64,000 nucleotides of DNA, taken from the NCBI GenBank assembly GCA_017552455.1, contig JAFZPX010000053.1:1-64000 (forward strand), read 5' to 3'. The position numbers were made by a program, and so were the translations under genes. The DNA comes from Clostridiales bacterium (GTDB lineage: Bacteria > Bacillota > Clostridia > Saccharofermentanales > Saccharofermentanaceae). Positions 2,981 through 8,790 of the stretch are shown one piece after another. Every line of letters starts with the position of its first letter. Position 1 is the stretch's first letter. Under the pieces are notes generated by a model. That model did not search any database. It was not told where the DNA came from and was given only the letters and a program-made list of their open reading frames with translations.

Positions 2981-4474
2981 TTAACACCAATAAAGCGAGA
3001 ACGAATTCACTCCATAATAATTAGCGACCTCAAGATTCGCGAAATACTCGGGATAATCAATGTACAACGGGATGTACAGTACTGTTCCGGGAAGCACGGG
3101 TTCTGTAAGAACCACATCTGAACCATCCTCGGCAGCAGCCACCTTCTCATACAGCTCAGTCATCTGTCTTGATGCAATCTGCATTCTGTCGTTCTTAAGA
3201 TCGTCGATGATCTTCATGGACATACCGTTCTGGTAGTTGAGGATGAGCTGACCTGAGAACATGATGACGATGCCGATGATAAGGATGATTGACTTATAAG
3301 CCTGCTCCCTTGCGTTGATGTTATTACGCTTGAGAAGATCCTTCACATAGAAAGCGATCACAGCAGTAAGAACGATCAATGTGACAGAGATAACAAAGTC
3401 GAATGTGTAGATTATTCTCGTACTGGATACATAAGCGTCGATGTTATAGCTTCCGTATCCGAGGATTACCGGGAAGATCGTGATCATTGTGATGAACAAT
3501 GAGCCGATAACAGAAGCGATCAAAGTCTTGCCTGATACTACTACGTTAGATACAGAACACAGGCAGATAACAAATACTATAAGAAGTACCAGAGGCAGAA
3601 GATAAGCTGTGAGCAAGCCTCCGATATGAGTGATCAGGTTATACCAGCTTGATGTGAATGAAGGAACAAGATCCAATGCTCCGCTTGCCTCCATGGCATC
3701 ATGTCTTTTGAAGTTTCCGGGAGCAGCTGTATTAAAGAGCGCACCGGCTACAGTAAATACAAACGGAAGCCCAAGGAAAAGAACTCTCTTGATATTCTTC
3801 TTAATGTTCTTGATGCCGATAGCATAGATGATAAGGAGCACCAGGAAAGCTGCACAGCCGAAGCCTACGACCTCGAGTGAACCGCCGGCACCGATAACAC
3901 CGAAGACACCTGCAAGGATCGCATAGACAAGCTTCTGATCGAAGTAGCTCTTGATAGAGAATCCGAGGCAGAAGAGAATGGCGATGAGCGGGAATGTATA
4001 TACTGCAGCACCTGTATACCATGAGAACAGCTCACCCGTCAAAGAGATGTTAAGAACGATGAACTCTGAAAGAATGCCAGCTGCCCATGCCTTACCTGAA
4101 GAAAGCTTGAAGAACTTGGTGCAGACTGTATAGATAAGGAAGATGAGCGAAGCGATAAACAATGCTACGCAAGCCATAAGGATCAGTCTGATACCTGTAA
4201 AAGACTCTCTGACTGAAGGCTCAAGTCCCATAAGGATCTCTCCTGTATATGTTCCCTGCCATGTCTGATAGACATCTCTTGTATATGCAAGAGCAGATGC
4301 GAGAACGTTGTGGTTCTCCCTGTAGATGGAGACCGCATTGGCACATGAGAAATCATCTGCACCCGGAATGGCATATGAAGCCAATACAAAATGGGGATAT
4401 CCGATGATGAATGCCAATAAGGCATAACCCAGATTCTTAAGAACACTCTTGAGGAACGAACCCGATTTATTCAT
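2981..4474 (-). CDS. DUF6056-like polytopic membrane protein
   Basis: The 497-residue protein has about ten hydrophobic segments spread over its length and an N-terminal loop containing GADDFSCANAV and QGTYTGEILMG. This pattern occurs in the DUF6056/GtrII-like family of membrane proteins thought to act on lipid-linked sugars. The C-terminal 80 residues look extracytoplasmic, with the motif VLYIPLYIDYPEYFANLEVANYYG. The start is chosen by the ribosome-binding site AAGGTG seven bases ahead of the ATG. It is divergent from the PgaC-PgaD gene, with 195 AT-rich bases between them, so a shared surface-polysaccharide theme is possible. Catalytic activity is not established. Confidence 0.6.
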   Translation of the reverse strand: MNKSGSFLKSVLKNLGYALLAFIIGYPHFVLASYAIPGADDFSCANAVSIYRENHNVLASALAYTRDVYQTWQGTYTGEILMGLEPSVRESFTGIRLILMACVALFIASLIFLIYTVCTKFFKLSSGKAWAAGILSEFIVLNISLTGELFSWYTGAAVYTFPLIAILFCLGFSIKSYFDQKLVYAILAGVFGVIGAGGSLEVVGFGCAAFLVLLIIYAIGIKNIKKNIKRVLFLGLPFVFTVAGALFNTAAPGNFKRHDAMEASGALDLVPSFTSSWYNLITHIGGLLTAYLLPLVLLIVFVICLCSVSNVVVSGKTLIASVIGSLFITMITIFPVILGYGSYNIDAYVSSTRIIYTFDFVISVTLIVLTAVIAFYVKDLLKRNNINAREQAYKSIILIIGIVIMFSGQLILNYQNGMSMKIIDDLKNDRMQIASRQMTELYEKVAAAEDGSDVVLTEPVLPGTVLYIPLYIDYPEYFANLEVANYYGVNSFSLYWC

Positions 4475-4653
4475 ATGAGCACCTTTTCCGTCAGATTTTT
4501 ACGGCCTAAAACCGAATAAATAATATCATAAAAAAGAAGTAGTGAAATCTGAACACTCTTTTTTATTAAAAAATATGTTAAATCTTTGACGTTCTTTATT
4601 AAATAAATCAACAGAACCTTCATATCTATAAGAGTAGAATATGCAAAAGAAAC

Positions 4654-4661
4654 GAGGGGGA
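4654..4661 (+). promoter_or_regulatory. Ribosome-binding site deciding a TTG start
   Basis: GAGGGGG lies eight bases before the TTG at 4669. The nearest in-frame ATG (codon 10 of the reading frame) has no such site, so TTG is the likely start of the PgaC-PgaD gene. Confidence 0.65.
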
Positions 4662-4668
4662 TCGTATC

Positions 4669-6600
4669 TTGTTTAGCAATCTGCCCTTAAGGGCTATGGA
4701 AGTTTTTGTATATTGGTATCCCGCCATCATGGGTATGATGTGGATCTTAGGTTCGTTGGTATTCTACTTTTCCAACGAACGTAAAGGTGCGCTCCAACTT
4801 GAGAAAACTCCCTTCGTATCCATCCTCATGCCGGCTCATAACGAGAGCAAGATCCTCTATCCTGTCGTCAAGGAGATGGTAGACCTTAACTATCCCGAAT
4901 ATGAAGTAATCCTCATAAACGACGGAAGCTCAGACGACACATCCGAAGTGCTTAAAGACCTCGCTTTAAAGTACGACAGAGTCCGTGTCATAGACCTCAA
5001 GGAGAACTGCGGCAAGGCAAACGCACTCTATCTGGGTCTCATTGCCTCCAAGGGTGAGATCCTCGTAGGTGTAGACGCAGACTCCTACCTCGACAAGAAT
5101 GCTTTAAGATACCTTGTTTCGCATTTCGTAAACAAGCATAACGGAGAGCGTGTAGGAGCCGTAACAGGCAATCCCCGCGTACGTAACAGAGGTTCCCTCC
5201 TCGGAAAACTCCAGCTGTGCGAATACGCCAGCATCATAAGCCTCATCAAGCGCACGCAGCGCATCCTGGGCAAGGTAATGACAGTATCGGGCGTGTGCGT
5301 AGCTTACAGGAAGCGTGCCCTCATGGAGTGCGGCTTCTGGGACCGCGACATGATGACCGAGGACATCGCTGTTACTTGGAAACTCGAGAAGAACTTCTGG
5401 GATGTCCGCTACGAGCCGCGCGCATTGTGCTGGATGCTCGTACCCGAGACTATCAAGGGACTGTGGCGCCAGAGAAGACGTTGGTCCGAAGGCGGACTCG
5501 AAGTAATCTTCAGACACTGGGACATCTTCAGGAGCTGGAAGCGTAGAAGAATGACTCCCATCTACCTCGAGCAGCTCCTCTCCTTCTTCTGGTCAGTATG
5601 CTGGCTTATCCTGACGATCATCCTGATCACTATGGAGATACAGGGACATCACGTCATAACCGAATACATCTGGAAGAGTCAGTTCCTTTCTTTTGTCTGC
5701 CTGTTCCAATTCCTTATAGCGATGTGGCTTGAGTCCAGATACGACGAGAAGATATTCGACAACGCATGGTCAGTCATCTGGTACCCCATTCTTTACTGGT
5801 ACATCAATGTATTCATAGCTCTCGCCTCCATCTTCAAGGCTATCCTTCCCAACAAGAAGCTTGCGACCTGGAAGAGTCCTGACAGAGGCATCACACAGAC
5901 CAAGAAAGAAAAGACCGAAGGCCCTGCCGAAGAAATAGATACCGAAGCGCTCGAGGACATGATCTTCGAATCAAAGCCCCGCGAAGTTAAGATCGGTATC
6001 GACGCAGAGGACCGTGATGCACTTATGGTACTGATGCGTAAGGAGCAGGCCATCACAGGCAAGGCCCCAAGCGACGAGCCCGTCATGCCTCTTATCGACG
6101 GTAGCTACGAGAACCCGATTGTTGGTAAAGATAAGGACAAGCATATCGAGTACGATACCAAGCAGGTCTGGTGGAAAAAGCTCATTGAGGTCATTCTCAC
6201 AATCGTCGGCTGGGTCTATATGCTCGTTTACTGGATTTACATGATGTACGGTGTCTTCCGCGATGCATTGGGATATCCCGTCAAAGAACTCTTTATCTAC
6301 GACATGGCAATGCTTAAGACCACAGAGCACTACTTCTATATCATGGGTCTCGTCATCATGATCGAGCTTGCCGCACTGATACTCTGGAAAGAATACAACA
6401 GAAGAAGATTCGGCAAGAAGACACGCCGTACATTCAAACCCGATATCGAGAACGCTGAGATTGATGCATGCTTCGAGCTGCAGCCCGAACTTAGCAACCG
6501 TCTGCACAATCACAAGTACGTCGAAGTCCTTCAGAACCCCATCCCCGAAGGCATGGGCCAGGGTCGTAAAGGAAAGAAGAAAAAAAAGAAGAAATCGTAG
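4669..6600 (+). CDS. Poly-beta-1,6-N-acetylglucosamine synthase, PgaC-PgaD fusion
   Basis: Residues 1-430 are a membrane family-2 glycosyltransferase of the PgaC/IcaA type. It has an N-terminal helix, VSILMPAHNE, INDGSSDD, VDADS, MTEDIAV (catalytic TED), QRRRW (acceptor/product channel) and the PgaC-type ending WKSPDRGI. A charged linker follows to about residue 505. Residues 510-640 hold two membrane helices, then WKEYNRRRFGKK and a helical tail with LQPELSNRLHNH, matching the layout and the YN-x-x-RF signature of PgaD. In proteobacteria PgaD is a separate subunit needed for activity and for cyclic-di-GMP control. The protein ends in a Lys-rich tail. Translation starts at TTG. No deacetylase or export gene (PgaA/B, IcaB/C) is in the window. 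Confidence 0.85.
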   Translation: MFSNLPLRAMEVFVYWYPAIMGMMWILGSLVFYFSNERKGALQLEKTPFVSILMPAHNESKILYPVVKEMVDLNYPEYEVILINDGSSDDTSEVLKDLALKYDRVRVIDLKENCGKANALYLGLIASKGEILVGVDADSYLDKNALRYLVSHFVNKHNGERVGAVTGNPRVRNRGSLLGKLQLCEYASIISLIKRTQRILGKVMTVSGVCVAYRKRALMECGFWDRDMMTEDIAVTWKLEKNFWDVRYEPRALCWMLVPETIKGLWRQRRRWSEGGLEVIFRHWDIFRSWKRRRMTPIYLEQLLSFFWSVCWLILTIILITMEIQGHHVITEYIWKSQFLSFVCLFQFLIAMWLESRYDEKIFDNAWSVIWYPILYWYINVFIALASIFKAILPNKKLATWKSPDRGITQTKKEKTEGPAEEIDTEALEDMIFESKPREVKIGIDAEDRDALMVLMRKEQAITGKAPSDEPVMPLIDGSYENPIVGKDKDKHIEYDTKQVWWKKLIEVILTIVGWVYMLVYWIYMMYGVFRDALGYPVKELFIYDMAMLKTTEHYFYIMGLVIMIELAALILWKEYNRRRFGKKTRRTFKPDIENAEIDACFELQPELSNRLHNHKYVEVLQNPIPEGMGQGRKGKKKKKKKS

Positions 6601-6629: not shown

Positions 6630-7604
6630 ATGGGTCCCGATTTTCTTCATCTGATCGCGGGCATGACGCTCGGCATCATCATCAGTTCCATATTCTTCTT
6701 CATCCCCATGGTGTGTCTTGCACCTATGTTCTATAGCAAGATCAGGATTCTGGATGTATTCGGATTTAAGCTCGAGCGTAATTACGACGAGAAGTGGCGC
6801 TTCATAAAGTACACTCCCAAGCTTACCGTAACCTGTCTCCCCCTTTGGGATATAAAGAAGCTCGAGGGGCTGCCTCCTGAACAGTACAGGGACAAACAGA
6901 ACTCCTATATCATCGTAAGCAACCTCATCGGCGTTGTTCTCTGCATCGCAGCAGGTATTATCTGCTACATCCCGAACAATAAGATTATCCGCTATCTCGG
7001 CATCTATCTTTGCATATATGCAGTAGCAAGATTCGGTATTATGATATGGACAGTAAGCCGCGCCAAGAAAGATTCCCTGTTAAGATACACGGAGCTTGCC
7101 AAGGATAAGATACGAAGCGGCATCCCGATAGAACTTCTCGACTTAAAGTCATGTAGCGAGCTTCCCTACCCCAATGCCACCAAGGCAGAGAAGGCTTTGT
7201 ACTTCCCTATGTATTTCGCTTTTCTTGAAGCCACAAGGCAGTATGAACTGATGGAAGAAGCCGTAAATGAGATTGAGCCCTACGTTATTAACTCAGGCGT
7301 CTCATCGACTATGATGATAGACTACTACGACATGCTGTACTACTATTCGCGCCATAACATTAACCGCGACAAGGCGCAGATGTACTACAACAAGCTTCGC
7401 TCTTACATCGAGAAAGACACAGACGCCAACGGACAGCGCGTCCTCGGCTTCTATGCTCTTAACGTAATGCTTAATAAGGACCTTGCACAGCAGTATGCCG
7501 ACAAGGCCCTGGCCGCTCTAGATAAGTTCTCTATCGGATCTGAAAGAGACCTCGAGCGTACAATGATCAATGAGTTGTTCGAGGCTATCAGGAACGAGTC
7601 TTAA
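6630..7604 (+). CDS. Membrane protein with helical C-terminal domain, unknown function
   Basis: The 324-residue protein starts 29 bases after the PgaC-PgaD stop, behind AAAAGGAG, and is therefore probably co-transcribed with it. Hydrophobic segments lie at about residues 8-33, 93-113 and 118-140. The rest (about 150-324) is a soluble helical region with repeated aromatic/Ala patterns like TPR units (LEATRQYELMEEAVNEI, YYDMLYYYSRHNI). The segment FGFKLERNYDEKWRFIK followed by a Leu/Pro stretch recalls degenerate site-2-protease-like Firmicutes proteins, but no HExxH zinc motif is present. The 3' end overlaps the convergent acetyltransferase gene by 17 bases. A role in polysaccharide synthesis or export is inference from position only. 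Confidence 0.7.
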   Translation: MGPDFLHLIAGMTLGIIISSIFFFIPMVCLAPMFYSKIRILDVFGFKLERNYDEKWRFIKYTPKLTVTCLPLWDIKKLEGLPPEQYRDKQNSYIIVSNLIGVVLCIAAGIICYIPNNKIIRYLGIYLCIYAVARFGIMIWTVSRAKKDSLLRYTELAKDKIRSGIPIELLDLKSCSELPYPNATKAEKALYFPMYFAFLEATRQYELMEEAVNEIEPYVINSGVSSTMMIDYYDMLYYYSRHNINRDKAQMYYNKLRSYIEKDTDANGQRVLGFYALNVMLNKDLAQQYADKALAALDKFSIGSERDLERTMINELFEAIRNES

Positions 7605-8790
7605 GCTCTTCCCAATCTTCCTTTGTCATTAAGTTAACGTGGCCCGTGCGCGTCTCGTGCATGAGCGGTACATCCACGTCTTCTGAGGTCCACTGGAACT
7701 TAAAGCCGAGCTTCTCCTGCACACGCTTAGACTTGTTGTTGCCATCGTAATATCCGCACCACACCTTCTCAAACTCAACATCCTCGAAAGCATGTCTAAG
7801 CAGCTCTCTTCCCGCCTCGGGCATTATTCCCTGTCCCCAGTAAGGCTTGCCGAGCCAGTAGCCGAGCTCACACTCGTCGTAGTTCTGTGCGAGGTCGTTC
7901 ATATTGCCGCCGTATAACTTCAATTCGATGCAGCCTATCGCCTTGTTATCTTCCTTGAGGCAAATTGCATATGCTTCCGCACCGTTAAGTGCATTTCTGA
8001 TTATGTTCCTGCTATCCTCAACACTCTGATGAGGTGGCCAGCCTGCGATGGGACCGATATCGGGATCCTTGCAAAGCTCGTACATACTCTCGGCATCGCT
8101 TTCCTCCCACTTTCTTAGGATGAGCCTGTCAGTATAAAGCGTCGCGTGAGTGAAGGAAGCAATCTCCTTTTCGAGCAGGCGGAATACGTTCGCGAGAAGG
8201 TAGCCGTCCGCGACAGCGTGGTTAAGACGCACGCTTACAGGCATCATGAGTCTTCCGTTCTCTTCGCGGTACCTGCCCCAGTTTACTATCGGAGGAAAAT
8301 GCAGATACCCGTCAGGAAGCTCGATGTTAAGTGCATCGTAAGACAGCCACGAGATGTAGGACGCGTCGAACCAGTTCCGGTGTCCCTGCATGTCGAGTTT
8401 GTATTCGCGTGTCTTCTTGGCTTCTTCAAGATCCTTCAGCGCATTATCGTAGAAAGTCTTGTAGTCCTCATAATATGTCGTATACACGGGCGTGCAGGTC
8501 TCTGTATCCTCGTGGAAACAGTACTGAATCGGATTGATCTGATCGTAGCAGATGAGTTCCTCGTCTTCCCACAGATAACCCATCTTATAGTCGTCGCGGG
8601 AGTTAAGCACCTTCGAGAGGATGTACAGGAAGTTAATGTAGAACTTCGTGCCGTTCGCCTTGGAATGATTAACGAGGCGCGTAACATCAATCCTCGCTGT
8701 CATGGACGTCGAACACTTGCAGTCCATCGTAAAGTGATCGAAGACACCCTTGCGGTAATACTTGTCTTTATCTACAACTTTGTAATTCAT
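7588..8790 (-). CDS. Chloramphenicol acetyltransferase-like/GNAT fusion protein
   Basis: Residues 1-213 form a type-A chloramphenicol acetyltransferase-like domain. It has the N-terminal R-x-x-x-FDHF-type motif and LNHAVADGYL, which holds the catalytic His (H191) and the structural Asp of the H-x-x-x-D-G motif. Residues 217-400 form a GNAT domain of the RimJ/RimL type: TDRLILRKW, GCIELKL, ELGYWLGKPYWGQGIMPEA (acetyl-CoA loop) and NNKSKRVQEKLGF. Both domains look complete. The gene overlaps the MATE exporter gene by 4 bases (ATGA), so acetylation and export of a toxic compound may be coupled (inference). Substrates cannot be deduced; many such proteins do not confer chloramphenicol resistance. 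Confidence 0.85.
   Translation of the reverse strand: MNYKVVDKDKYYRKGVFDHFTMDCKCSTSMTARIDVTRLVNHSKANGTKFYINFLYILSKVLNSRDDYKMGYLWEDEELICYDQINPIQYCFHEDTETCTPVYTTYYEDYKTFYDNALKDLEEAKKTREYKLDMQGHRNWFDASYISWLSYDALNIELPDGYLHFPPIVNWGRYREENGRLMMPVSVRLNHAVADGYLLANVFRLLEKEIASFTHATLYTDRLILRKWEESDAESMYELCKDPDIGPIAGWPPHQSVEDSRNIIRNALNGAEAYAICLKEDNKAIGCIELKLYGGNMNDLAQNYDECELGYWLGKPYWGQGIMPEAGRELLRHAFEDVEFEKVWCGYYDGNNKSKRVQEKLGFKFQWTSEDVDVPLMHETRTGHVNLMTKEDWEELKTRS

Follow-up and report, generated by a model that had tools for sequence, protein, structure and literature searches.

A PgaC-PgaD fusion in a putative poly-N-acetylglucosamine synthase of rumen and gut Clostridia

One gene encodes both parts of the synthase

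In a 64,000-nucleotide stretch of DNA from a Clostridiales bacterium (hereafter the window), we identified a single uninterrupted open reading frame that encodes a PgaC-type glycosyltransferase and a PgaD-type subunit in one chain, joined by an acidic linker (Table 1). The initial annotation had read this gene as PgaC and PgaD fused into one poly-N-acetylglucosamine (PNAG) synthase, and the fusion itself is borne out by curated protein models and by conservation of the arrangement over two genera. The C-terminal part does resemble PgaD, and a separate PgaD beside a fused homologue was looked for and found in none of the genomes searched.

Table 1. Features of the fused gene, by position in the window
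Feature	Position	Strand	Basis
pgaC-pgaD fusion gene, 643 aa	4669..6600	+	one ORF of 643 codons, TTG start at 4669, stop at 6598-6600; TIGR03937, TIGR03940, and PF13994 each above cut-off
Ribosome-binding site GAGGGGG	4654..4660	+	sequence read directly; TTG start 8 bases downstream
PgaC/IcaA synthase part, residues 12-407, SPDRG at end	4702..5889	+	TIGR03937; D136-x-D138, TED 230-232, QRRRW 268-272
Acidic linker, residues 408-495, low predicted confidence	5890..6153	+	pLDDT mostly 42-66; dN/dS 0.18-0.31 where computable
PgaD part, residues 496-621	6154..6531	+	TIGR03940, PF13994
PgaD helix 1, residues 501-534	6169..6270	+	AlphaFold2 model
PgaD helix 2, residues 546-582	6304..6414	+	AlphaFold2 model
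Membrane-proximal motif WKEYNRRRFGKKTRR, residues 573-587	6385..6429	+	aligned with E. coli PgaD W71, Y74, N75, R78, F79

The synthase part matches the PgaC_IcaA equivalog model TIGR03937 at 486.6-488.7 bits, against a cut-off of 422.3, and spans model positions 3-407 of 407, which places it in the PgaC/IcaA family at full length, as had been annotated. The residues of processive GT2 enzymes are present (D136/D138 and the further motifs of Table 1), and the W-x-SPDRG end is found as WKSPDRG at residues 401-407. Equivalog models for cellulose, NodC, and other GT2 enzymes score far under their own cut-offs on this part of the protein. Identity to E. coli PgaC is 41% over 407 columns; an N-terminal stretch of about 24 residues in the E. 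coli protein is without a counterpart in the fusion, and SPDRG lies at residues 403-407, compared with 433-437 in E. coli. R198 and V203, which correspond to E. coli R222 and V227, are conserved in the alignment. In a fold search, the synthase part of the AlphaFold2 model matches cellulose and hyaluronan synthases (BcsA match, Z 21-25). Taken on its sequence, this part is probably a PNAG-type synthase that would make PNAG from UDP-GlcNAc. Staphylococcal IcaA falls under the same curated model, but according to the accessible part of an exopolysaccharide operon survey its second component is IcaD, which is not homologous to PgaD, and the staphylococcal system is independent of c-di-GMP (PMC7112194); the tail of the fusion is PgaD.

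The C-terminal part belongs to PgaD on two curated models, the equivalog TIGR03940 (52.9 bits versus a cut-off of 31.45) and PF13994 (40 bits versus 27, residues 493-620), and on its two predicted membrane helices and WxxYNxxRF tail. It had been placed at residues 505-643; the profile searches uphold the assignment and move its start to about residue 495. The linker, the two helices, and the YN-x-x-RF tail (motif at 573-581) follow one another in the order originally described. PgaD is otherwise defined as a separate small subunit, and here it shares its ORF with PgaC.

The extended motif, W573-x-x-Y576-N577-x-x-R580-F581-G582...R586-R587, is common to fused and split PgaD. Among fused proteins, W, Y, N, G, R586, and R587 are each present in 21/21 alignment rows, and among split PgaD proteins W and R587 are present in 40/40 and Y and N in 38/40. 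Steiner et al. (2013) reportedly described changes that confer c-di-GMP independence, which lie in PgaD at N75/K76 and in PgaC close to R222/V227. Two further positions distinguish the fused proteins: E566 in helix 2 (window 6364-6366) is nearly fixed in them (20/21) and D532 near the end of helix 1 (window 6262-6264) occurs in 18/21, while split PgaD is mostly hydrophobic at both.

Structure, selection, and the linker

AlphaFold2 modeled the whole chain with a mean pLDDT of 86.7 and a pTM of 0.86, with residues 591-630 reaching a pLDDT of 93-97. Folded alone, the PgaD part gave a weak model (pTM 0.44), its tail at a pLDDT of about 63-87; because alignment depth differs between the two runs, the comparison goes only as far as suggesting that the PgaD tail may be ordered by docking on the synthase. 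Strong purifying selection acts on both halves (dN/dS 0.02-0.04 in the PgaC part, about 0.09 in the PgaD part), and the linker between them is fast-evolving (Table 1); all of these values are approximate because dS is high.

The linker carries 22 D/E versus 13 K/R in about 87 residues and varies from 33 to 114 residues across the fused loci. Being long, fast-evolving, and predicted to be disordered, it could conceivably be cleaved or allow translation to re-initiate, yielding an ordinary PgaC and PgaD from a fusion that would serve only for co-expression. We consider this very improbable. The linker differs so widely among species in length and sequence that it fits poorly with a conserved processing site, and none of its four in-frame ATG codons is a good candidate for an internal start of free PgaD, one having a GAGG about 14 bases upstream and the others none.

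Distribution and origin of the fusion

The carriers are Saccharofermentans-like rumen and gut Clostridia. Within the genus of the window, the synthase has a patchy occurrence (20 of 85 species, each represented by a genome, and 11 of 46 near-complete genomes), which marks it as an accessory trait; it is fused in 19 of the 20 and split in one (G013). Across the order, 29 of 188 genomes searched contain PgaD, with one match apiece, and 27 of these matches fall within open reading frames 501-680 codons long, the two genomes with short separate frames being G013 and G541. A second genus of the same family also carries the fusion. A scan of genome contigs, the fused loci of which overlap in part with the genomes of the genus and order counts, found 49 split loci and, in addition to the window, 24 fused ones, among them those of the isolates AB4001 and KHP2. 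An assembly or frameshift artefact was ruled out, since the fusion is present in many independent assemblies and is shared by nearly all synthase-bearing congeners and by the second genus. The window's own genome (69% complete) has one PgaD and one PgaC match above cut-off, both inside the fusion ORF. No second PgaD was found there or in the genomes of the order, and the near-complete congeners agree.

Outside this group, a sample of 398 Bacillota and 398 Pseudomonadota genomes was scanned, and no fusion was found among its PgaD carriers. PgaD is separate in all 7 matching Bacillota genomes (5 above cut-off), in frames of at most 163 codons, and in all 26 matching Pseudomonadota genomes. The longest outside frame, of 457 codons (L157), was rejected as a fusion because it is not the frame that encodes PgaC.

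In the PgaC tree, the fused proteins lie in neighboring groups beside split pairs from Lachnospiraceae. The best tree requires a minimum of two changes, and a single origin of the fusion is not rejected (single fused clade, p-AU 0.171). Nearest in the tree are split pairs from Lachnospiraceae and Clostridium; these have pgaD directly after pgaC and no pgaA/pgaB operon but, unlike the fusion, encode PgaD in its own ORF. One fused locus of uncertain affiliation, with a linker of 114 residues (L057), may represent a separate fusion event. The pair in G013 (L011, 10490-12291), the sole split pair seen in the genus, sits among Lachnospiraceae in the PgaC tree and so looks like a lateral replacement rather than a reversion; it offers a natural control for the fusion.

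Genomic context and the likely product

Both halves of the fusion are homologous to E. coli PgaC and PgaD (HmsR and HmsS in Yersinia), in identical order, and the positions of the PgaD WxxYNxxRF motif and of PgaC R222/V227 are conserved. The E. coli proteins, however, are encoded by two genes within the pgaABCD operon, whereas the fusion is one chain with no adjoining pgaA or pgaB. Neither a Pfam scan of the window nor the neighbors at the fused loci revealed pgaA, pgaB, or ica genes around the fusion gene. The fused loci thus lack the adjoining pgaA porin and pgaB deacetylase of a pgaABCD operon, and the window has no deacetylase neighbor in the place of icaB in icaADBC. No neighbor is conserved across the fused loci. 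Among the split loci, a deacetylase-type neighbor cluster is found at 14.

The polysaccharide deacetylase family PF01522 has no match in the window's own genome (69% complete) and is absent from 4 of 11 fused congeners (G012, G002, G463, and G467), while other fused genomes possess it. Since some carriers are without this family, the polymer may not be a classical, partly deacetylated PNAG, and deacetylation may take place in trans or not at all. The missing deacetylase in these carriers and the missing PNAG operon partners at the locus would also fit a different beta-linked GlcNAc-containing polymer, with PgaD as the activator of its synthase. We regard this as improbable, as the PgaC_IcaA cut-off is passed over the whole model and other GT2 equivalogs fall far below theirs.

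In the window, on the strand opposite to the fusion, at 2981-4474 (-), lies a gene for a 497-aa multi-helix membrane protein without a Pfam or NCBIfam match, which adjoins the synthase in close relatives too (L038, L040). Directly downstream, at 6630-7604 (+), is a gene for a 324-aa protein of no known family; its relatives adjoin the fusion in L046 and L049, but upstream. The gene at 7588-8790 (-) encodes a 400-aa protein that combines a chloramphenicol-acetyltransferase-like PF00302 domain with a GNAT PF13302 domain, and a 400-aa homologue occurs in G030 (L019, 6129-7331).

Carrier genomes are rich in GGDEF domains, with 29 matches above cut-off in the window's own genome (69% complete) and 13 to 42 in the 11 fused congeners (27-42 in 10 of them). 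Near the fused loci, 9 GGDEF genes were counted in 280 kb versus 3.9 expected, an excess that is not significant when related loci are merged into single cases (roughly 6 independent ones, P about 0.2). An Rfam scan of the window and 13 fused loci for a c-di-GMP riboswitch at the gene gave tRNAs alone. At L050 (G467:C14), a same-strand GGDEF gene (4412-5521, +) ends 69 bases before the open frame of the fusion and is possibly a dedicated cyclase in that species.

Proposed control by c-di-GMP

Binding of c-di-GMP to PgaC and PgaD of E. coli stabilizes the contact between them and activates the transferase, and free PgaD undergoes degradation (PMC8461298; PMC12564702). In the fused protein, the N-terminal GT2 part would polymerize UDP-GlcNAc on the cytosolic side, and the polymer chain would pass through the transmembrane helices of the synthase. 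Held by a presumably cytosolic acidic linker, the PgaD part with its two helices would be the activating subunit and would dock on the synthase through its WxxYNxxRFG...RR tail. Most likely, c-di-GMP still activates the enzyme by tightening a PgaC-PgaD contact that is now intramolecular, and the second layer of control in E. coli, the release and proteolysis of free PgaD at low c-di-GMP, would be removed. With this turnover layer gone, the fused enzyme should outlast a fall in c-di-GMP levels and be available for use again. We find it moderately probable that a single-chain PNAG-type synthase has in this way retained c-di-GMP allostery and lost the turnover layer.

The subunit ratio would be fixed at 1:1, as PgaC and PgaD form a single chain, and control by c-di-GMP is probably altered. 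Retention of the PgaD motif suggests that this control is modified rather than abolished. The fusion is likely to bind c-di-GMP, with the caveat that conserved residues are no proof of binding because the c-di-GMP site of PgaCD has no structural definition in the cited sources.

The main rival to retained allostery is that the tether itself mimics the c-di-GMP-stabilized complex, leaving the enzyme active without c-di-GMP and controlled by transcription alone. Tethering would hold PgaD at a high local concentration, no GGDEF partner is fixed at the locus, and in E. coli c-di-GMP works through contact stabilization (PMC12564702). On the other hand, the fused proteins show no relaxation at the WxxYN..RFG..RR motif or at PgaC positions 198 and 203, and many GGDEF domains are encoded in carrier genomes. 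We therefore judge a permanently active enzyme unlikely, though less so than the alternatives raised above.

Retained allostery could also take a stricter form, in which c-di-GMP acts purely by reversible intramolecular allostery with no subunit turnover and PgaD is a built-in responsive domain, much as PilZ is in cellulose synthase. We put this forward tentatively, as a possibility that falls a little short of an even chance. In BcsA, too, a GT2 synthase carries a regulatory part at its C terminus within a single chain, and the synthase folds match; BcsA has a PilZ domain, however, while a Pfam scan of the fusion gave PgaD and no PilZ. Since the added part is PgaD, the likeness is one of analogy and not of membership.

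Implications

We found no natural PgaC-PgaD fusion in the openly accessible literature, though domain-architecture databases may already list the pair, and the accessible part of the exopolysaccharide operon survey makes no mention of one (PMC7112194). The same part of that survey describes GT-PgaB fusions, in which a deacetylase is joined to a GT domain (PMC7112194), so that domain fusion occurs within PNAG-like machinery there too, but with other partners. The fusion also places a PNAG-type synthase in GGDEF-rich rumen and gut Clostridia, for which our literature search gave no earlier report.

A PDB search with the E. coli proteins returned no chain named PgaC or PgaD, which makes a natural single chain a useful structural target, and its fixed 1:1 composition may ease purification for cryo-EM. 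According to a review, it is unresolved whether c-di-GMP switches PgaCD on by holding the subunits together or by altering the shape of the enzyme (PMC8461298). The fusion separates these models: if c-di-GMP is still needed, allostery would be the core of the mechanism, and if it is not, assembly would be. A conserved natural variant of this kind could thus help to show how the c-di-GMP signal works.
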